From Candidatus Schekmanbacteria bacterium (GTDB lineage: Bacteria; Schekmanbacteria; GWA2-38-11; J061), in the NCBI GenBank assembly GCA_016219965.1, contig JACRJM010000015.1, positions 95,857 through 159,856 of the forward strand: a stretch of 64,000 nucleotides of DNA, written 5' to 3'. Position 1 is the first letter of the stretch. Each line of letters begins with the position of its first letter. A program made the position numbers and the translations under genes. The notes below the pieces were generated by a model. That model ran no database searches. It was given only the letters and a program-made list of their open reading frames with translations, and was not told the DNA's origin. This document shows positions 24,797-61,499 of this stretch, piece after piece.

Positions 24797-24837
24797 TTAA
24801 TGCTTCATAAGTTCCTTCCTTCTAACCTTGATTGACA

Positions 24838-25746
24838 ATGAAAATTAAATTGCGTTGTTTGGTGCTCACGTTGGCGGTCTTATCGATTATAGCGCCGCAG
24901 AGAAATTCCTTTGCTCTATCGAGCGGTCATTTTGTTGATGAACTCGGCAGAGATGTATATATCCCTTCTGAACCGAAGCGGATAGTATCACTTGCTCCGA
25001 ACATAACGGAATTACTTTTTGCACTCGGTCTTGGAGACAGGATAGTGGGTGTTACGAACTTCTGCAATTACCCTAAAGAAGCTCTCTCAAAGCCAAAAGT
25101 CGGGATGCTTCTAAATCCGGATATTGAAAAAATACTTTCCCTCAAGCCTGACCTTGTTGTGTGGCTTTCGGAAGGAGACAACAAGCCTGCCTTTGAAAAG
25201 CTAGAAAAGACTGGAATTAACCTTTATATTATTGCTCCAAAAGATATTAGCAGCCTCGTTAAAACAATTAAAAGGCTTGGAGATATATGCAGGAAAGAAA
25301 AAGAGGCAGATGTCCTTGTGAAATCAATTGAAGAACGGCTTAAAAACATAGCGGCAAAAGTTGATAAGCTTGGAAAACCGAGAACACTTTTTCTTCTTGA
25401 TATCAATACCCCTGTATCAGCTTCTGTTGGTTCTTTCCCAGATGAGATGATAAGGATTGCAGGTGGTTTGAATGTTATAAAAACAACTTACTCAAAATAT
25501 CCGCGAATAGGATGGGAAGATATAGCCCGGTCGTCTCCTGAAATAATCATAGTCGCAAGGCATACCGAGGAAACGGAAAAGAGTTTCAGGATGTTTAAGC
25601 GTGAGGCTGCGGTAACAGTAACTCCGGCTTCCCAGAAAGGGAGGGTCCATCTGGTTGATGGGGATATAGTGAGCAGAATGTCGCCAAGGACAATGGATGG
25701 TGTTGAAGAATTTGCGAGACTCATTCATCCTGAGGCTTTTAGATGA
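24838..25746 (+). CDS. btuF: ABC transporter substrate-binding protein, probably corrinoid (BtuF-like)
   Basis: About 302 residues with a signal peptide (TLAVLSIIAPQRNSFA) and the class III periplasmic-binding fold of the FecB/BtuF/HmuT group: RIVSLAPNITELLFALGLGDRIVGVTNFC, PKVGMLLNPDIEKILSLKPDLV and IGWEDIARSSPEIIIV. The ATG at 24838 is preferred over the TTG six bases earlier. It captures the ligand in the periplasm for the permease that overlaps its end (ATGA). Cobalamin is inferred because the convergent receptor operon is led by a B12 riboswitch; iron-siderophore uptake is the alternative. It lies 41 bases after tRNA-Leu with no clear promoter between them. Confidence 0.82.
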   Translation: MKIKLRCLVLTLAVLSIIAPQRNSFALSSGHFVDELGRDVYIPSEPKRIVSLAPNITELLFALGLGDRIVGVTNFCNYPKEALSKPKVGMLLNPDIEKILSLKPDLVVWLSEGDNKPAFEKLEKTGINLYIIAPKDISSLVKTIKRLGDICRKEKEADVLVKSIEERLKNIAAKVDKLGKPRTLFLLDINTPVSASVGSFPDEMIRIAGGLNVIKTTYSKYPRIGWEDIARSSPEIIIVARHTEETEKSFRMFKREAAVTVTPASQKGRVHLVDGDIVSRMSPRTMDGVEEFARLIHPEAFR

Positions 25747-26765
25747 CAACCCCTACGCCATCAAAGATATTGTTGATGACGGTTCTTCTCTTTATACTTT
25801 CCTCTGCCGCGATTTTTGCTTCTCTTTGCATCGGCTCAGTCCCGCTCACTGTGAGCTCAGTAACCGATGTTCTTTTTAAATTTATTACCTCAAACAATTC
25901 GGCTGACAGCTATACGCGTGCAATTGTCATGGATTTGAGGCTTCCGCGCGCTGTCTTTTCATTCCTTGTCGGCGCCGGGCTTTCAATCGCAGGTATTATA
26001 TTTCAGGTTGTTTTAAAAAATCCTCTTGCTGAACCATATATTCTGGGCATCTCAGGAGGCTCTGCGGCGGGCGCTGTGATTGCAATATTCGCTGGGTTTT
26101 CCTTTGCCTATTACATCACGGTATTTTCATTTGCAGGAGCACTTGTCGCCATCGGGATTCTTTTATTTATCTCCACAGGCAGATGGGGCGTTTCCTCAAA
26201 CTCACTTCTTTTGGGTGGCGTAATAATAAATGCATTTTTTGCGGCTGTCGTGATGTTTATTCTTTCTGTCTCAACTCGCGGCGAGATGCAGAGGGCTTTT
26301 TTCTGGCTTATGGGCGACCTCAGCAATATACCTTTTTCTACCGTAAAATTTATTCTTCCCATTGTGGCAGGCGGCGGAATTCTGACCTTTGTGTCGGCAA
26401 GAAAACTCAACGTCCTTTCTCTCGGAGATGAAACGGCGCTTCAGCTCGGAGTCAATGTCCGTTTTTACAGCATGGTGATAATCGTCCTTGCATCGCTTCT
26501 TACGGCAGGTGTCGTTGCATCAAGCGGTCTTATAGGTTTTGTGGGGCTTGTTGTGCCGCACATGGTGAGGCTCACTGTTGGGGCAGACAACCGTATCACT
26601 GTGCCGGCGTCGTTTTTTGCAGGAGGCACGTTTTTACTTATATCCGACACCATCGCAAGGACTGTTATAAGCCCCATTGAGCTTCCGGTTGGGACTGTCA
26701 CCGCAATTATAGGTTCCCCATTTTTTCTTTATCTTCTCAAAAAGGAATCAGCTAAGTTAGTATAA
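25743..26765 (+). CDS. btuC: FecCD/BtuC-type ABC transporter permease
   Basis: A 340-residue polytopic membrane protein with the many hydrophobic helices of the FecCD/BtuC family. Motifs include RLPRAVFSFLVGAGLSIAG near residue 65, NPLAEPYILGISGGSAAGAV, ALQLGVNV and SSGLIGFVGLVVPHMVRL, then the SDTIARTVISPIELPVGTVTAIIGSPFFLYLL end. It forms the inner-membrane channel for corrinoid or ferric-siderophore import. It is coupled to the binding-protein gene by an ATGA overlap. The ATPase gene follows after 146 bases that contain a palindromic repeat element. Confidence 0.88.
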   Translation: MTTPTPSKILLMTVLLFILSSAAIFASLCIGSVPLTVSSVTDVLFKFITSNNSADSYTRAIVMDLRLPRAVFSFLVGAGLSIAGIIFQVVLKNPLAEPYILGISGGSAAGAVIAIFAGFSFAYYITVFSFAGALVAIGILLFISTGRWGVSSNSLLLGGVIINAFFAAVVMFILSVSTRGEMQRAFFWLMGDLSNIPFSTVKFILPIVAGGGILTFVSARKLNVLSLGDETALQLGVNVRFYSMVIIVLASLLTAGVVASSGLIGFVGLVVPHMVRLTVGADNRITVPASFFAGGTFLLISDTIARTVISPIELPVGTVTAIIGSPFFLYLLKKESAKLV

Positions 26766-26911: not shown

Positions 26912-27685
26912 ATGGATGAAGTGCTGAAAATTGAAGGAATTGATTTCAGCTACGGGAACGGAAACGTCCTCTATAATGTAAATCTCAGTGTCAATGAAGG
27001 CGAGATGCTTGCCATACTTGGTCCCAACGGATGCGGCAAAACCACTTTATTAAGGCTGATCTATGGAGCGCTCAAAGCCTCACGGGGAAGGATAACTCTT
27101 TTCGGGAAAGAACATCTTTCAAGGAAAGAGGTATCAGAAAAGGTTGCCATTGTTTCAAAATCTGAGAATACGTCCATTTCATTTTTAGTATCAGAGATGG
27201 TCATGATGGGAAGATATGTTAAGTCAAAAGGGATCTGGTTTGAAAATAACGAGGACAAGAAAATGATTGCAGGAATTTTAGATGAGCTTCACATTGAGCA
27301 TCTTTCTGCAAAGTATTTCAATTGTCTGAGCAGCGGTGAACAGCAGAGGGTGTTGATAGGGAGGGCTCTTGCCCAGAAGCCAGAGCTTATGCTCCTTGAT
27401 GAGCCCACTTCGCATCTCGACATAAGCCACCAGCTTGAGTGCCATTCGCTGTTGAAGAAGCTTAATGATAGTTCTGGTATGACAATGGTCATAATTTCTC
27501 ATGACCTTAATCTTGCGGCGCAGTTTTGCAGCAGGATAATATTGATGAAGGATGGAAGGGTTTTTGCTGACGGTCATGCAGGAGATGTGCTGACAGAGCA
27601 GAACATCCGCGAGGTTTACGGCATAGATACTATTGTTGACGGCAATCCTGTAACAGGAACACCACGCGTCACCCTGCTTTCGTAA
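26912..27685 (+). CDS. btuD: ABC transporter ATP-binding protein (BtuD/FecE type)
   Basis: A 257-residue ATPase with Walker A GPNGCGKTT (residues 34-42), signature LSSGEQQRV, Walker B LMLLDEPTSHLD and switch His in VIISHDLNLAAQFC, ending with the REVYGIDT segment typical of FecE/BtuD proteins. It energises import through the permease encoded upstream. The gene is separated from the permease by 146 bases including element C, unlike the tight coupling of the first two genes. Confidence 0.88.
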   Translation: MDEVLKIEGIDFSYGNGNVLYNVNLSVNEGEMLAILGPNGCGKTTLLRLIYGALKASRGRITLFGKEHLSRKEVSEKVAIVSKSENTSISFLVSEMVMMGRYVKSKGIWFENNEDKKMIAGILDELHIEHLSAKYFNCLSSGEQQRVLIGRALAQKPELMLLDEPTSHLDISHQLECHSLLKKLNDSSGMTMVIISHDLNLAAQFCSRIILMKDGRVFADGHAGDVLTEQNIREVYGIDTIVDGNPVTGTPRVTLLS

Positions 27686-27729
27686 GAAACTTCAATTAAG
27701 CACCAGGCTTAATCCTCTATATGACGATT

Positions 27730-27792
27730 AAGCTGATGCAGTCTGCGCATCGCTTAAAACTTCATGCGCTCTTTCGCAACCTGCCTCAGGTT
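27730..27792. repeat. Palindromic element D (family 1, loop type 1)
   Basis: Arms at 27730-27747 and 27775-27792 pair at 14 of 18 positions around CGCTTAAAACTTCATGCGC, the same loop core as element A. A tail GTTAGATGTGGTTAATG follows at about 27802, and related tails follow E and precede F. Located between the convergent btuD and tonB-like genes. Confidence 0.75.
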
Positions 27793-27847
27793 ATGTCTTA
27801 GTTAGATGTGGTTAATGAATGTCTTGTCTTATTCCCATATTACTAGG

Positions 27848-27910
27848 AAGCTGAGGCAGACTGCGCGTCGCTTAAAAATTCATGCGCTCTTCTGCAGTCA
27901 GCCTCAGCTT
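27848..27910. repeat. Palindromic element E (family 1, loop type 1), tandem copy of D
   Basis: Arms AAGCTGAGGCAGACTGCG (27848-27865) and 27893-27910 pair at 16 of 18. The loop is CGCTTAAAAATTCATGCGC. Element and tail repeat element D with a 118-base period, so D and E arose by tandem duplication and then diverged. Confidence 0.78.
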
Positions 27911-28039
27911 GCGTCTCAGTTAGATACGGCTAATGCATGGGTTGGCCAATCCCACTATGAAAAGAAAACTAATGGCATTTTACTTCAAGCACTCTTTAGT
28001 GGGTTGTCTTAGCTGAATACTTGGTTAGATGCGGCTGAT

Positions 28040-28104
28040 AACGGCTTGGCAGTCCCGCGGCAGGCGCATGAAGTTCTAAGCCTAAGCGGGACTGCCAAGC
28101 CGTT
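28040..28104. repeat. Palindromic element F (family 1, loop type 1 inverted)
   Basis: A 19-bp perfect inverted repeat (AACGGCTTGGCAGTCCCGC, 28040-28058, with 28086-28104) around GCGCATGAAGTTCTAAGC, the reverse complement of the loop core of A, D and E. The right arm runs into TTTATTAA, so it may serve as a terminator between btuD and the convergent tonB-like gene. The rest of the 27686-28201 gap is unique sequence without a supportable gene. Confidence 0.85.
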
Positions 28105-28201: not shown

Positions 28202-29008
28202 TTATGTAATTTGGAATTCGATCGTCACTGACAGCAAAGCCATGCCGTTATTGAGGATTCCTTCAGGAGGAGGAGGGAAGGGGGAAGCACGTTTTATGCA
28301 TTCTAACGCCTCGCTGTCCAAAGCATCCCATCCGGATGTTGCTAATACAGATACATTTGCCACGCTTCCATTGCTGTTAAGATATATCTGCGCTTTTACT
28401 TTTCCTTCCATCTGCCGTGCCAATGCGGCTTGAGGATAACGTTTGTTCTTCTCTATTATTTTTAGACATAGTGCCAGATAACCTTCATACGTCATATTTC
28501 CGTATCCATTGCCAATTCCTGTTCCTCTGCCATTCCCCATGCCACCGTCATTTCCACCTCTGCCGCCTCCAAAGGCTCCTCCAAATCCTCCACCACCCGG
28601 CATTCCGGAACCTAATCCCGGCATACCTATCCCGTAACCAGAGGCAATTATCGGGGCAGGTGGCATATCCTTATTAATTCCCATTGATGATGGGATATTC
28701 CCTGGAGTTGTTTTGGAGGGTTCTGTGGATTTTTCTTCTTCTTTGTTATTTATCTCTGATGTTAAAGCTTTTGCGGACAGGACTTTGCGAGCTGTTCCCG
28801 TTCCTGATTTTATTTCCTTCTTTATTTCTATTTCTGGTTTTCTCTCAGGGATATCAATATTGAGGGTAATAAAATCAGCAATCTTTTCTTTTTCCAGCCA
28901 TTTATTGTTTTCAGATATTATGAAAACAAGGAGGATGAAAAGCATATGCAGGAACAATGAAAGAAGAATAAACAGCCCGCTTCTTTTATCATGATTCCTG
29001 AAGAACAT
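28202..29008 (-). CDS. tonB: TonB-family energy transducer
   Basis: A 268-residue protein with one N-terminal membrane helix (LFILLSLFLHMLFILLVFII) and a charged linker. The linker is followed by an unusually glycine-rich stretch (about residues 125-175, repeats of GMG/GGG/GNG) rather than the classic Pro-Lys spacer. A C-terminal TonB domain follows (KIIEKNKRYPQAALARQMEGKV, ending with FPPPPEGI and a final beta strand). It couples inner-membrane proton-motive force to the outer-membrane receptor. It is the last gene of the riboswitch-led operon. ExbB/ExbD are not in the window. Confidence 0.87.
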   Translation of the reverse strand: MFFRNHDKRSGLFILLSLFLHMLFILLVFIISENNKWLEKEKIADFITLNIDIPERKPEIEIKKEIKSGTGTARKVLSAKALTSEINNKEEEKSTEPSKTTPGNIPSSMGINKDMPPAPIIASGYGIGMPGLGSGMPGGGGFGGAFGGGRGGNDGGMGNGRGTGIGNGYGNMTYEGYLALCLKIIEKNKRYPQAALARQMEGKVKAQIYLNSNGSVANVSVLATSGWDALDSEALECIKRASPFPPPPEGILNNGMALLSVTIEFQIT

Positions 29009-29027: not shown

Positions 29028-30170
29028 TCAAAAAGCTATGCCTGTCGGAGCCATCTCGCCAGTGCTTGTTGGCCCTGACACCTTGCTATTGTTTTTGACT
29101 TTATAAATTATAATGCCCGGGTTTTCAAGACTTCTGTCTGTTACATAAAGATACCCCTCTTTGTCCAGAGCAATCTGCGGTATATAAGATGAGTTGGTTC
29201 CGCTTAACTTACTCGATACAGAACCGTCTGACGGGTTAAATGGGGTAACAATATTTTCTGCAAAGTCGCCGCTTGCGATATAACCTTTGGTAGCGGAATA
29301 AATTACAATAGAGCCCGGACTTCCGTTTAAATCATCGTCGTTTATAAGCATTCCTTCAGATGTGAATGTGGCAGGGTCAACCACTTCAATGCCGCCATAG
29401 TTGTCGACTGCATAGTTGCCGTCTGAAATATACTTCCCGGCATTTGAAACATAAATTTTACCTGTTGTTTTATTGTAAGTTATAAAACCAGGATTTCTTC
29501 CTGAGAGTGCTATTGCCTGTTTGCCGTGAGTTTCCGGATCAACGTCATAGAGTTTATTTGTTTTAGTATCTATGACCGCAATAAGGCTGTCTTCTGTAAC
29601 TTCATAGTTTACCGTACGCTGGAGTGCAACAAAAAGATAATGTCCCACTATTGCCATTGATTTTGGTTCTGCAAAGCCGTCTGAATCAGCAAATTTGGCA
29701 AGGCTTATCTTCTTCTTTATTTTGCCTTTGACCGGATCAACAAGAAATATATCATTTGAACCTAGTCCGCAGATATAAGCATTTTTTATGTCCTTGAAAA
29801 TTATATCCTGCGGGTTTGTCCCTTCAGGGAAAGCATATTGATTGACGGGAGAAGAGATGTCATTTTTTTTGATGACTATTATGTTGTCTCCCTGATACTT
29901 TTCTATCACGAAGAGGTAATTCTTGTAGCTTCTTATTTCAGAATCCTGGTTTATCTGACTTAAAATATCTTCGGTCGCCTGTACATTTGTGTGTTTCACG
30001 TTGACCTTTATAGTGCTGATAGTAGACCCGCTGGTATCATAATTTGAATTAAGCACGTATGCCTTAGTCCCATTCTGTGCTGCGTAAAGCCCGTGAACGG
30101 GTATAGTCATGGCAATGACTGCCAATAATATCTTTCCTGTCACCGTTCTTAATATGTTACATTGTTTCAT
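29028..30170 (-). CDS. Secreted YncE-like beta-propeller, possible BtuG-like corrinoid-binding protein
   Basis: A 380-residue protein with a signal peptide (ILLAVIAMTIPVHGLYA), then repeated four-strand blades of the YncE/NHL-like seven-bladed propeller type (NYLFVIEKYQGDNIIVI, AYICGLGSNDIFLVDPVKG, NPGFITYNKTTGKIYVSNAG, GYLYVTDRS). There is no lipobox Cys, so it is exported but not obviously lipid-anchored. It lies 63 bases after the BtuB-like gene and 19 bases before the TonB-like gene, under the same cobalamin riboswitch. In Bacteroides the BtuG propeller caps BtuB and captures B12 with high affinity. A similar role here is inferred from fold and context only. Confidence 0.72.
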   Translation of the reverse strand: MKQCNILRTVTGKILLAVIAMTIPVHGLYAAQNGTKAYVLNSNYDTSGSTISTIKVNVKHTNVQATEDILSQINQDSEIRSYKNYLFVIEKYQGDNIIVIKKNDISSPVNQYAFPEGTNPQDIIFKDIKNAYICGLGSNDIFLVDPVKGKIKKKISLAKFADSDGFAEPKSMAIVGHYLFVALQRTVNYEVTEDSLIAVIDTKTNKLYDVDPETHGKQAIALSGRNPGFITYNKTTGKIYVSNAGKYISDGNYAVDNYGGIEVVDPATFTSEGMLINDDDLNGSPGSIVIYSATKGYIASGDFAENIVTPFNPSDGSVSSKLSGTNSSYIPQIALDKEGYLYVTDRSLENPGIIIYKVKNNSKVSGPTSTGEMAPTGIAF

Positions 30171-30233
30171 GGCACTTTCCCCTATGTTAGAAATCAGGTT
30201 ATATTTGTTATAAAGTTGCTGTGATTAAATTCC

Positions 30234-32285
30234 TTAAAATTCTGTATCCCTGCTGTCACCTCCTTTAAAATTTGTGGTCACTGTTACGAAAAAGGCTCTT
30301 CCCGGTATTGGGAAGCCGCTAAGATCTTCTATATTGCTGTCGTTCAGGTTTTTCGCTTCGAAGTTGATGGTAAAATATTTTCCAAAGTAGAGACTTGCGC
30401 CAAGATTATGTATTTCCCTGTCTTTGGTTGGTCTGATATTTATCCTGTCGAGGTAATTCTTTTCAACCTTGTTAAGGTTATAGTAAAGCTCGCCATAATC
30501 GTTAAACACCCTGAAGCGGACGGTGTATTCTTTTTTGGGTCTGCCGGGAAGGAACTTGCTGTTGTATCCCGGTAGTCCGCTCCTGTCCCTTGCATCGAGC
30601 TTTGTATAATTCCCATTGATGTCAAGATGATCGAGAATGCGTAATCCCATCGAGAATTCAGCCCCTTTTATTCTTGCCTTGCCGATGTTCTCCGGCGTGA
30701 AAGTCCGCTGGGAATTCTGGATGAAAAGAATGAGATTTTTTACTTCATTATCAAAATAAACAGCTTCAAAAAAACTCTGTGTAATAATCCCCTTAAAAAG
30801 ATCTCCCTGAAGCCTTATCCCAATGTCGCGGTTGTTGCCTGTTTCAGGTAAAAGCTCAGGATTGCCTATGACACCTCCCTTGTCCCCGTAAAGTTCAAAG
30901 AAGTTTGGTATCCTGAAATATTTTCCTACATTGCCTCTAAACGTCATCCATTGGAAAGGAGATACTTTTATGCCTGTCTGCCATGTGGTGAGTTCCGTGT
31001 ATTCTCTTTGGTATGTTGGATTTTCCTTATCAAAGAAAAAGATGGAATTATTCGAAGACTTGTCATTTATCATTTCAGTCTTAGCTGACCCGGTAAACTT
31101 GATTTTATCTGAAAATATATAGAGGCTGTCTTCAGTTCCTAAGGTAAGCGTTGTCCTGTAGCTTTTTCCATTATTGGTGTCTGAGAATTTATCTTCAGGT
31201 TTGAAGTTTTCACTTCTTAACTGGATGAGGAACTCGGTATCAAGGTATTTTGTGGGATTGCCTGTAAGGTTTATGAGCCCTCCAAAGCTTTCAGTGACAT
31301 TGTGGTTGTCCTGAAATCCTACGCCTATCTCATTATGTCTGTCTTTGAATTTGCTAAGTTCATAGGAATTGAAAAAAGAAGTTTCGAGTTTGAATCCTCG
31401 TATGGGAAGTCTTTTCCATTCAAGTTCAAGACGGCTTATGTTGTTTATGTTCCTGATTGATGCTGTTTCAGACTGATATGACTCTATTCCCGGCACTCCC
31501 CTGAATGTCCTTGTGAGATTATTTGAAATAGAGATTCCAAGAAGGTCTGATACATCATATTCAAGGCGGGTTGTGATATTGAGAGACCTGAACCTGTTAT
31601 TTTTTCGATGTACCCATCTGTCGTCACTGGTTGTGAATATCGTGCCGTTGTCATCGAGGAATTCAAAGTCATTGTCGCTCTTTGTATAATTTATTCCTGC
31701 AAGGAGTCTGAGATTGCCTATACTGTGCGAGGCATTGAAGCTGTATTTGTAAGTCTCGAAAGAGCCATAGCTTACGGAGCTGGTTATATTGGAGCCTTCT
31801 TCAGGGATGCGGGTTTTTATATTCACGATGCCGCCTATCCCTGATTGGCCGAATCTCAATGGGGAATTGCCTCTGTAGATTTCAATTGAATCAACGTTGA
31901 AGAGCGGTATCTCCGAGATATCAACACCGCCTCCGCGCGCCTCATTTACAAGAACTCCGTCGAGGAATACCATTACCTGGTCAGAGGTTGAGCCTCTTAT
32001 TGAAATGGTGGAAAAGCTTCCAAGACCTCCAAGCTGGTTAACCCTTACTCCGACTTCGTCTGAGATTGCTTCCGGAACAGTCCTGAAATATTTATCAAGT
32101 TCTTTTCCGTCAATTACAGTGACGAATGATGTGGGGGATTCAGTGATAGCCTGATGCTGGGCTTCGCGGTCTGCCCTGACTTTTACTATGCCTATATCTT
32201 TTGGAACTTCTTCTGAATTAGCTGCCGAAGAAGCAGTTATTGCGGCGATTGTCAAAAAAATTGCACATAGGCTCTTCATTCTCAT
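30234..32285 (-). CDS. btuB: TonB-dependent outer-membrane receptor, cobalamin (BtuB-like)
   Basis: A 683-residue receptor. A signal peptide (CAIFLTIAAITASSAANS) is followed by a plug domain of about 130 residues (SPTSFVTVIDGKELDKYF, ISIRGSTSDQVMVFLDGVLV, VDSIEIYRGNSPLRFG, GGIVNIKTR). A long beta-barrel made of alternating strands follows. It imports its ligand across the outer membrane with TonB energy. The cobalamin riboswitch and terminator directly upstream make a corrinoid the likely ligand. Two possible starts exist, ATG at 32285 and ATG at 32279. The first lies right behind the terminator's T-run, so the ribosome-binding purines fall in the terminator stem. Confidence 0.9.
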   Translation of the reverse strand: MRMKSLCAIFLTIAAITASSAANSEEVPKDIGIVKVRADREAQHQAITESPTSFVTVIDGKELDKYFRTVPEAISDEVGVRVNQLGGLGSFSTISIRGSTSDQVMVFLDGVLVNEARGGGVDISEIPLFNVDSIEIYRGNSPLRFGQSGIGGIVNIKTRIPEEGSNITSSVSYGSFETYKYSFNASHSIGNLRLLAGINYTKSDNDFEFLDDNGTIFTTSDDRWVHRKNNRFRSLNITTRLEYDVSDLLGISISNNLTRTFRGVPGIESYQSETASIRNINNISRLELEWKRLPIRGFKLETSFFNSYELSKFKDRHNEIGVGFQDNHNVTESFGGLINLTGNPTKYLDTEFLIQLRSENFKPEDKFSDTNNGKSYRTTLTLGTEDSLYIFSDKIKFTGSAKTEMINDKSSNNSIFFFDKENPTYQREYTELTTWQTGIKVSPFQWMTFRGNVGKYFRIPNFFELYGDKGGVIGNPELLPETGNNRDIGIRLQGDLFKGIITQSFFEAVYFDNEVKNLILFIQNSQRTFTPENIGKARIKGAEFSMGLRILDHLDINGNYTKLDARDRSGLPGYNSKFLPGRPKKEYTVRFRVFNDYGELYYNLNKVEKNYLDRINIRPTKDREIHNLGASLYFGKYFTINFEAKNLNDSNIEDLSGFPIPGRAFFVTVTTNFKGGDSRDTEF

Positions 32286-32288
32286 GGC

Positions 32289-32349
32289 AAAAAAAATCCC
32301 CTGTCATTTTCTTCTTCGAGGAATCAACGAAGAGAAAAAGACAGGGGAT
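32289..32349 (-). terminator. Intrinsic terminator of the cobalamin riboswitch expression platform
   Basis: On the minus strand a 10-bp stem ATCCCCTGTC (32349-32340) / GACAGGGGAT (32305-32296) is extended by a pyrimidine/purine-rich stem closing on CTTCG...CGAAG, and is followed by eight T residues (32296-32289). It ends three bases before the receptor start codon. Its 3' arm contains AGGGGA, the only candidate ribosome-binding site for ATG 32285, so the hairpin could block both transcription and translation. Confidence 0.88.
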
Positions 32350-32420
32350 AAATTGCTATTTGATTTCCCTGCGCTCTTAACCCCCACGTTCTTTACCTCG
32401 AAGAACATTGTTGTGAGGCA

Positions 32421-32590
32421 TACTAAGGCAGGTCTACTGGCTTGAGGACTATTCTTTCCTACTCCCTCTTCCTTCCCGCTCCCTTCGGAGCAGTGGCTTT
32501 CATTGAGGTTTCGTTTCCTCTTACAGTGGCGGGACCACGATGGCTTTTAACCATCTTCCCTCTTAGGCTGTTTAATCAGCAACCTTAGTA
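32421..32590 (-). promoter_or_regulatory. Cobalamin (AdoCbl/B12) riboswitch aptamer
   Basis: Read on the minus strand, the sequence has the hallmark elements. A closing stem TACTAAGG/CCTTAGTA is followed by AAGAGGGAA and GGTCCCGCCACTGT. After a variable helix comes the B12 box AAGCCAGTAGACCTGCC (plus-strand 32427-32443), matching the consensus. It is followed by a small hairpin (GTTCTT...AAGAAC) and then the intrinsic terminator. Ligand binding is expected to favour termination and lower expression of the btuB-propeller-tonB operon. Confidence 0.95.
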
Positions 32591-58620: not shown

Positions 58621-59865
58621 TCAACCTTCGAATTTCTTGAATGCAAGACATGCATTTGTCCCGCCAAAACCAAAAGAATTGGATATGACGGCATTAAGCT
58701 TAGCCTCGCGGACTTTGCCCGGAACATAGTCGAGGTCACAGTCTTCATCTTTTTCTTCATAATTCATGGTTGGCGGTATTATGTTGTTTTCAATTGCCAG
58801 TATTGAAAAGACCGCTTCAATTGCTCCCGCAGCTCCGAGAAGATGTCCTGTCATTGATTTTGTCGAGCTTATGGGAACCTTGTATGCCATTTCGCCAAGA
58901 ACCCTTTTTACTGCGATGCTTTCTATCTTGTCGTTTAGCGGTGTTGATGTGCCATGTGCATTAATATAACTGATCTCTTCATGGTTAAGACCGGAATCTT
59001 TAATAGTTGCATTCAGGCATCTCATAGCGCCGTCCCCGTCGGGAGTAGGGGAGGTTATATGATATGCATCGCAGGACTGCCCGAATCCTATCAGTTCTCC
59101 TCTTATCTTTGCGCCTCTCTTTTTTGCAAATTCAAGTTCTTCGAGAACGAGCATCCCTGAACCTTCACCCATTATGAATCCGTCTCTGTCCCTGTCAAAT
59201 GGCCTTGATGCCCTCTCCGGTTCATTATTCCTCGTTGAAAGGGCTTTCATGGAGCAGAAGCCACCGACAGCAAGAGGAGTGATAACCGCCTCAGTTCCAC
59301 CTGTTATCATTGCATCTGTCTCACCTCTCTGGATTGTCCTGAAGGCTTCTCCGATCGAATGTGTTGCAGCGGCGCATGCCGTGACTAAACTTGAATTGGC
59401 GCCGCGCGCATTGAACATCATCGCTATCTGACCTGCCGCAAGGTTGATGATGACCTGCGGTATGAAGAACGGCGATATCCTTCTTGGTCCCTTCTCAAGG
59501 AGTATTTTATGATTCGCTTCGATAAGAGGCATGCCTCCGATGCCTGAGCCTACAATGACTCCAAACCTGTCTGCGAAGCTATCGTCCGCCACGAGCCCTG
59601 AGCTTTTCATTGCCATTACAGCGGTTGCCACGGCAAACTGTATGAATCTGTCCATTTTCTTTGCTTCGCGCGGGTCCATGTAATTAGTTGCTTCAAAATC
59701 CTTTACTTCTCCCGCAATCTGGCAGGAATGCTCTGTTGGATCGAAATGCGTAATTCTTCTTATCCCGCTCTTTCCCTGCACAAGTGACTCGAGGTTCTCT
59801 TTTTCTCCTATGCCAATAGGAGATATTATGCCTAGTCCGGTGACTACAACCCTACGCTTTTCCAA
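58621..59865 (-). CDS. fabF: 3-oxoacyl-[acyl-carrier-protein] synthase II
   Basis: A 414-residue condensing enzyme of normal FabF length. The Cys-His-His triad is visible in VTACAAATHSIGEAF, NAHGTSTPLND and KSMTGHLLGAAGAIEA, and it ends SFGFGGTNACLAFKKF. It elongates acyl-ACP with malonyl-ACP in fatty acid synthesis. Its start overlaps the end of the radical SAM gene by 14 bases. No acpP or fabG lies beside it. Confidence 0.94.
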   Translation of the reverse strand: MEKRRVVVTGLGIISPIGIGEKENLESLVQGKSGIRRITHFDPTEHSCQIAGEVKDFEATNYMDPREAKKMDRFIQFAVATAVMAMKSSGLVADDSFADRFGVIVGSGIGGMPLIEANHKILLEKGPRRISPFFIPQVIINLAAGQIAMMFNARGANSSLVTACAAATHSIGEAFRTIQRGETDAMITGGTEAVITPLAVGGFCSMKALSTRNNEPERASRPFDRDRDGFIMGEGSGMLVLEELEFAKKRGAKIRGELIGFGQSCDAYHITSPTPDGDGAMRCLNATIKDSGLNHEEISYINAHGTSTPLNDKIESIAVKRVLGEMAYKVPISSTKSMTGHLLGAAGAIEAVFSILAIENNIIPPTMNYEEKDEDCDLDYVPGKVREAKLNAVISNSFGFGGTNACLAFKKFEG

Positions 59866-61330
59866 GTTCAGATTTCCTCCCTTTTATTTTTCTCTTAATC
59901 TCAGTGTTTGTCCTGATGGAATATTCTTTTATGTTAAGTGCTGCTATTCCTTCTCTTATCCTTTTGAGGAAAATCCTGTTCTCCTTCATCCACTTTCTGT
60001 ATATCCTGTGCCCCTGTGTTCTGCCTATCATGGTAAAGAAATCAAACTTTGCGAACCGTTTCACTATGCTCCAGTATGAATAAAAGTGCTTCGTGGCTTT
60101 GAGAATACCGAGCTGAAGCTCTAAGGGTGACATTCTTACAGGCCTGAATACTACATGGTTACCGTCATAGAGGTTCCAGTCATAGCTGAATATTCTACCT
60201 TCATTTTTTAAATCGTCAAATACTTTTGAACCCGGTATGGGTGTAAGTGCCATGAACTGTATAGTGTCGATGTGCATCTTCCTTGAGAACTTCAATGTGT
60301 CTTTTATAGTGCCTTTGTTGTCAGAGTCTGCACCGAGTACGAACATTCCATGGATTTTTATCCCGTACTTATGGAATTGCTTTATCTGTCTTCTGACAGC
60401 AGTTATATCAAGCTTCTTGTTGAATGCTTTTAAAGCTGCCGGATTTACCGACTCGAATCCGACGTACACTTTTGAGCAGTTAGACTGTTTCATCAGTTCG
60501 AGAAGCTCTGTGTCGTCGGCTGTCTCTATCCTCATCTGAGCGCCCCACATCGTGCCTATCCCTTCTTCTATTTTTCTCCTCAATAGTTCCTTGGTCCTTT
60601 TGCGGTCTGCCGCGAAGTTGTCATCACATATGAAAACATAATCTGCTTTTATGTTTTTGAATTCCCTTATGACATTATCAATGCTGTTTAACCTGTATTG
60701 ATTTCCATAGAAATTTGTCACAGTACAGAAACTGCAGTTATAAGGGCAACCGCGCGAAGTGGAGAGAGGGAAGATGGCTATTTTTTCATGCCCCTTGATG
60801 AGGCTGAAATCCGGCATCGGTGTTTCGTCGAGGCACCTCATCACCTCTGAGTCAGGGTTGTGGACTATGTTCCCGTCCTTTTTAAATGACAAACCCATAA
60901 CTTCTTCAAATGCCTTTTTTCCTTCCATTGCGTCCACTAGTCCAGGCAGTGCTTTTTCCCCTTCACCTCTAACAACATATGAGCAGTAATCAAGGCTTTC
61001 TTCAGTCATGAAAGTCGGGTGGAATCCTCCCATGACAACAGGTACACCATTGTCTTCAAAATATTTTGCGATAGAATATCCCTTTGGAGCAGTTGATGAA
61101 GTGCATGAGATCCCTATCAGGTCTGATGACAGGGCATCATCGAAATCTATGGGACTGATATCTTCCACATAAATGGTGACATCACACCCTTTTTCTTTCA
61201 TCAGCGCACCAAGAATGGGAAGGCCCAGTCTCGGTATCTTCTGGCTGCTGTAAATGTGCCAGCCTGAAGCCGCAGGCTCGATGAATGTTATTTTTTTTAT
61301 CTTTTTTATTCCGTTGGATTGTGTTCCCAT
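59852..61330 (-). CDS. Radical SAM protein with N-terminal B12-binding domain
   Basis: About 492 residues from the ATG near 61330, which has GAGAGGG upstream; the open frame extends to a TTG at 61351. The N-terminal about 140 residues form a Rossmann-like cobalamin-binding domain (GLPILGALMKEKGCDVTIYVED, VVMGGFHPTFMTEE, YVVRGEGEKALPGLVDAM). The radical SAM core has the 4Fe-4S motif in SRGCPYNCSFC and the later GFESVNPAALKAFNK. Class B enzymes of this kind methylate unreactive carbons or rearrange rings. It opens the cluster with fabF, which suggests a lipid-related substrate by context only. The corrinoid uptake genes at 25-32 kb would supply its cofactor. Confidence 0.87.
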   Translation of the reverse strand: MGTQSNGIKKIKKITFIEPAASGWHIYSSQKIPRLGLPILGALMKEKGCDVTIYVEDISPIDFDDALSSDLIGISCTSSTAPKGYSIAKYFEDNGVPVVMGGFHPTFMTEESLDYCSYVVRGEGEKALPGLVDAMEGKKAFEEVMGLSFKKDGNIVHNPDSEVMRCLDETPMPDFSLIKGHEKIAIFPLSTSRGCPYNCSFCTVTNFYGNQYRLNSIDNVIREFKNIKADYVFICDDNFAADRKRTKELLRRKIEEGIGTMWGAQMRIETADDTELLELMKQSNCSKVYVGFESVNPAALKAFNKKLDITAVRRQIKQFHKYGIKIHGMFVLGADSDNKGTIKDTLKFSRKMHIDTIQFMALTPIPGSKVFDDLKNEGRIFSYDWNLYDGNHVVFRPVRMSPLELQLGILKATKHFYSYWSIVKRFAKFDFFTMIGRTQGHRIYRKWMKENRIFLKRIREGIAALNIKEYSIRTNTEIKRKIKGRKSELGKA

Positions 61331-61499
61331 TGGAATTGCCCTCTCAAGCAATAAGCGATTTTACTAATACTATAAGCCTTTTTCTTTAGCATTTAAAGCC
61401 TTTAAAGTCAATTCATACCGGACTCAAAAGGATGTATTGACAAACGCTTCTCAACCAATTAGATAGCGGGTCTAAGCATCATCGTTTTTCAGCAATGAT

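Follow-up and report, generated by a model that had tools for sequence, protein, structure and literature searches.

Results

Gene organization of the locus

The window, i.e., the whole stretch of 64,000 nucleotides of Candidatus Schekmanbacteria DNA analysed here, carries between positions 24832 and 32602 a set of genes and regulatory elements related to cobalamin (B12) uptake. The minus strand carries, in this order, a cobalamin riboswitch, a receptor gene, a gene for a secreted protein, and tonB, and all four were found where a preliminary description of the sequence had located them. The riboswitch aptamer (RF00174; 32410–32602) is matched by Rfam over its full length (1–189) with 104.9 bits and an E-value of 3.2e-25, and it is the single match to this family in the whole genome (3.58 Mb, 98% complete). 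Its expression platform, recognized by RNA folding and sequence, is a long hairpin followed by a U run (32288–32349, minus strand) directly before the start codon of btuB. The hairpin folds with a z of −3.84 against shuffles and is absent from the output of a simple terminator scan; judged by its sequence, it constitutes an intrinsic terminator that would also bury the likely ribosome-binding site of btuB.

The gene at 30234–32285 (minus strand) encodes a BtuB-like TonB-dependent outer-membrane receptor of 683 amino acids, for which Pfam detects Plug (7.4e-19) and the barrel (1.1e-32). It is followed on the same strand by the gene for a secreted protein of 380 amino acids (29028–30170), shown below to be a BtuG-like seven-bladed beta-propeller, and by tonB (28202–29008; 268 amino acids; Pfam TonB_C, 3e-15), whose product possesses a long glycine-rich linker where a proline-rich one is usual. 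Convergent with this operon, the plus strand encodes a btuF-like periplasmic binding protein (24832–25746; Pfam Peripla_BP_2, 2.6e-35; NCBIfam BtuF, 3.5e-30, below cut-off), a btuC-like permease (25743–26765; FecCD, 1.4e-92; in NCBIfam closest to BtuC, 1.9e-75, below cut-off), and a btuD-like ATPase (26912–27685; ABC_tran, 1.6e-31), whose top NCBIfam matches include a corrinoid ABC ATPase, below cut-off. The region between btuD and tonB (27719–28104) contains two tandem 118-bp copies that are 76% identical as well as an inverted repeat with perfect 19-bp arms around a 27-bp spacer.

The receptor resembles known B12 transporters

The best named NCBIfam match of the receptor is the B12 receptor TIGR01779 (E-value 1.2e-45, far below the equivalog cut-off). 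When a profile of the receptor family is compared with the PDB, XusA, BtuB1, BtuB3, and E. coli BtuB rank first. The window receptor was modelled with AlphaFold2 (pLDDT 80.9), and a Foldseek search with this model returns BtuB1 of the BtuB1–BtuG1 complex at the top (8.3e-36), then XusA of XusAB, and then E. coli BtuB; two of these three best structures come from lid-bearing pairs. By sequence and model, the window receptor is placed closest to known B12 transporters, with XusA ranking alongside.

The secreted protein is a BtuG-like propeller

The product of the gene at 30170..29028 has a signal-peptide-like N-terminus and is devoid of a lipobox and of a C-terminal tail. As a single sequence, it finds no match in Pfam, NCBIfam, or the PDB, nor in genome contigs or plasmids, and profiles built from relatives gathered by whole-genome searches were required. 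It does not match PF16819 (DUF5074), to which 2 of 34 close relatives have weak matches, nor the YncE-like propeller family PF21783. With a profile of 6 relatives, BtuG structures rank first in the PDB and pknD (NHL repeats) comes next, close behind at 2.4e-7 and in a different region. With a profile of 34 relatives, all nine BtuG sequences lead (2e-10 to 2e-9) and the next non-BtuG propeller appears only near 1e-3. In a profile-profile comparison with hhalign, the family aligns to full-length BtuG, for which the full sequence from a Bacteroides finegoldii plasmid was employed, with 96% probability and an E-value of 2.1e-9.

The AlphaFold2 model of the protein is a propeller of seven blades with a mean pLDDT of 87.5. 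The top 14 Foldseek matches in the PDB are all BtuG (best 4.8e-16), followed by the archaeal YVTN protein 1l0q (6e-12), YncE (1.7e-10), and XusB (1.2e-9), and the model superposes on BtuG to a moderate degree (TM about 0.65, rmsd about 4 Å). A quick phylogeny, with weak support and long branches, places BtuG on the side of the window family and away from YncE, but is given no weight here. The preliminary description had spoken of a YncE-type beta-propeller; the fold is as it said, and the YncE label is a loose one, YncE ranking below all BtuG structures (1.7e-10 versus 4.8e-16). Its proposed resemblance to BtuG is supported by sequence profile, fold, partner receptor, and gene neighbourhood. 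The same description had left room for an independent or a variant form of BtuG, of which the variant fits better. Because of the profile similarity and the lipid anchors kept in many relatives, we read the relationship to BtuG as common descent, and an independent origin is set aside, since no other solved propeller comes as close to the family by profile as BtuG does.

A conserved and acidic top face

Strands and loops were assigned by hand from the secondary structure of the model. Of the 38 residues that are most conserved among 111 relatives, 21 lie in the top loops (D-A and B-C) and none in the bottom loops (Fisher p 5e-4). The net charge of the window propeller is −14 in the top loops and +7 in the bottom loops, and a comparable charge dipole has been reported for BtuG2 (PMC6143338). 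In BtuG, the pocket is lined by W194, Y239, and W272 (PMC10404256), and the loops bearing these residues correspond to the conserved top face of the window propeller. Two aromatic positions have aromatic counterparts, F58 of the gripping loop of BtuG corresponding to Y44 and Y239 to Y247, and E168 and G165 of the window propeller align with E and G of BtuG. The mapping of W194 is ambiguous, as it falls on Q184 in two alignments and on a conserved aromatic residue at position 189 in a third; for W272, no aromatic residue stands at the corresponding place. Since W194 is not clearly kept and W272 lacks an aromatic match, we read the upper-ligand pocket as rebuilt. A corrinoid site on the top face, not identical to that of BtuG, is therefore a plausible prediction from alignment and model.

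Receptor, propeller, and riboswitch recur together

Of 67 loci of a first genome set that encode relatives of the propeller, 49 have a same-strand receptor, 53 have a riboswitch, and 59 have at least one of the two; for the 25 highest-scoring of these loci, the respective numbers are 25, 24, and 25. A separate collection, scanned with seven closer relatives (16 diverse ones were too divergent), provided 80 named loci, some of which share genomes with the first set. A receptor is present in 73 and a riboswitch in 62 of them, and 77 have at least one of the two. In 54 of the named loci, the available upstream sequence spans 3.5 kb or more; of these, 52 have a receptor, at least 49 have a riboswitch, and none lacks the one as well as the other; the receptor lies directly upstream of the propeller in 50 of the 54, and the usual order is riboswitch-receptor-propeller. 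These riboswitch counts stem from a sequence-only search that misses some cases, for example that of locus L163; in a sample of 12 loci, Rfam recovered the riboswitch in 10, one of them missed by the sequence-only scan. Twenty Lactonase-type (PF10282) propellers from the same genome set served as controls, of which none has a receptor and one has a riboswitch. Relatives and controls differ with p about 2e-9 each for receptor and riboswitch, the receptor contrast being inflated because some control genomes may be without an outer membrane. The recurrence of btuB-propeller pairs beside B12 riboswitches, suggested in the preliminary description as a point to check, is thus confirmed (77 of 80 named loci with receptor and/or riboswitch versus 1 of 20 controls).

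The hosts of the 80 named relatives span about ten named phyla and comprise Eisenbacteria, Krumholzibacteriota, Latescibacterota, Fermentibacteria, Gemmatimonadetes, Acidobacteria, Binatia, Myxococcales, Kofleriaceae, Bdellovibrionales, other ‘Deltaproteobacteria’, Spirochaetaceae, and one gammaproteobacterial MAG. MAG labels may err, yet this spread is too wide for binning error. BtuG has been described as exclusive to Bacteroidetes (PMC6143338), and in the open-access literature we found no report of BtuG-like propellers outside this group.

Several loci show additional features. L012 (2987–5198), L070, L071, L171, and L186 each have a pair of propeller genes, arranged in tandem or on either side of the receptor, as if there were two lids or two ligands to serve. 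Another group of propellers, more similar to YncE (L076–L106; alignment A4), is also often encoded next to cobalamin riboswitches and receptors; 9 of its 36 members match PF16819 weakly and 12 match PF21783, and this group may be closer to Bacteroides BtuG than that of the window. Sequences with the pattern DxVVSFxPxxxx...VLGxP are fused to a propeller in L015 (6937–8745, C-terminal half, for which Pfam yields no family match) and encoded beside one in L012 (1875–2984); these similar-looking sequences may represent an accessory domain, much like BtuH on BtuG1. Locus L135, on the Bacteroides finegoldii plasmid NZ_OY725920.1 (73 kb), is a whole B12 uptake locus with genes for a DUF4465 protein, BtuG, a receptor, and an ABC transporter.

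Anchoring of the propeller

A lipobox is present in at least 48 of the 111 relatives (at least 43%), a lower bound because the lipobox pattern was strict. About 39 of the 111 have a C-terminal tail without a lipobox, and many of these tails match FlgD_ig or Por_Secre_tail, whereas a group from Binatia has an N-terminal EF-hand or dockerin-like segment. Neither a lipobox, nor a C-terminal tail, nor an EF-hand or dockerin-like segment was found in the window propeller or its nearest relatives (L010 and L011). The missing lipobox had been noted from the window sequence before, and this holds; most relatives outside the small clade of the window carry a lipobox or some other candidate anchor. As the window clade has no lipid or sorting-tail anchor, we propose a lid held by its receptor, and the unanchored propeller is probably kept at the surface by the receptor itself.

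Discussion

We consider the window propeller to be a divergent homologue of BtuG that would act as a B12-capturing lid on its BtuB, a reading to which we give a probability of about 80% and of which corrinoid binding, lid geometry, and surface location are the inferred parts. At low B12, the riboswitch-controlled operon would be freed, as suggested by the aptamer and the terminator before btuB. The propeller would be exported and then seated over the extracellular opening of the BtuB-like receptor, where its negatively charged top face could catch corrinoids and pass them into the barrel. TonB would provide the energy and BtuFCD would finish the uptake.

Alternatively, the unanchored propeller might be a periplasmic corrinoid carrier that receives B12 at the inner end of BtuB and hands it on to BtuF. 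The plain signal peptides of the window propeller and its two nearest relatives, all without lipobox or C-terminal tail, would fit such a role, and the related propeller YncE of E. coli is encoded next to the receptor gene pqqU. We judge this unlikely, as BtuF already performs that step and the receptor resembles BtuB1 and XusA, the partners of external lids; moreover, a lipobox is present in at least 43% of the family and a C-terminal tail in about one third, and many of the tails are of the FlgD/Por type typical of cell-surface export. That the propeller is a lid or binder for another ligand (a siderophore, heme, or a cobalt complex), as in XusAB, seems very improbable in view of the cobalamin riboswitches that control nearly all relatives, the btuFCD genes adjoining the operon in the window, and a propeller far nearer to BtuG than to XusB (4.8e-16 versus 1.2e-9), although XusA is the first or second match of the receptor and propeller-receptor pairs of Bacteroides serve siderophores (PMC13142918). 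Beta-propellers are common enough for chance co-location, and the gene for E. coli YncE itself adjoins a gene for a TonB-dependent receptor, but a generic YncE/YVTN propeller with an unrelated role, merely co-located in the operon, is hardly credible and is rejected by the 20 PF10282 control loci, given linkage in 77 of 80 named and 25 of 25 top-scoring loci versus 1 of 20 controls.

The B12-capturing lid would operate in an organism whose demand for B12 is unusually heavy. The genome encodes 32 B12-binding domains, many of them in frames sized like radical-SAM B12 enzymes, and one of the 32 belongs to a radical-SAM B12 protein encoded in the window (59852–61351). Of the synthesis genes searched, those for CobS and CbiC, neither was found in the 98% complete genome; on sequence grounds, the organism appears to be an obligate B12 scavenger with this operon as its only B12 import locus.

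On balance, we lean towards B12 capture by a receptor plus a propeller lid as a widespread module of B12-scavenging bacteria, among them Eisenbacteria, Krumholzibacteriota, Latescibacterota, Myxococcales, Bdellovibrionales, Binatia, and others, in which the anchors (a lipid, a C-terminal sorting domain, an EF-hand or dockerin-like N-terminus, or the receptor alone) would be interchangeable. If this is true, high-affinity capture of corrinoids at the surface would be a common strategy of B12 competition outside the gut, and an unannotated protein family would gain a function. The window would offer a natural case of a lid that has lost its own anchor, making it directly testable what holds and opens the lid.

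Among known systems, BtuG1, BtuG2, and BtuG3 of Bacteroides thetaiotaomicron (PF16819; PDB 3DSM, 8BMY, 8BLW, and 8P97) are the nearest in fold in the PDB. BtuG is a surface lipoprotein that has a lipobox and the Bacteroidetes export signal, binds corrinoids with femtomolar affinity, and forms a stable lid on BtuB. The window propeller shares with the BtuG proteins seven blades, a gene that neighbours btuB and lies under a cobalamin riboswitch, a conserved net-negative top face, and aromatic residues at the positions of F58 and Y239. It differs from them in its host outside the Bacteroidota, an identity of about 15% in Foldseek alignments, other conserved motifs in its family (NPQD, ADxDGxPE, and LQR), a clade without lipobox or export signal, W194 and W272 that are not clearly kept, and the lack of a PF16819 match. 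As the lipoprotein feature and PF16819 fail, we regard it as a variant of BtuG and not as a strict member. XusB-XusA of Bacteroides is also a propeller lid, in this case a lipoprotein, over a TonB-dependent receptor, and XusA is among the closest receptors; in contrast, this pair binds ferric siderophores, and XusB is a much more distant propeller. In E. coli, YncE and PqqU likewise are a secreted propeller and a TonB-dependent receptor encoded side by side, but the fold match of YncE is weaker than that of BtuG and its receptor is for PQQ, not B12. BtuJ (DUF4465) and BtuH are accessory B12 binders in riboswitch-controlled uptake loci as well, although they belong to other families and are not propellers; DUF4465 has been reported in eight clades, and 40% of one cluster are found near PF16819 propellers (PMC13398666).
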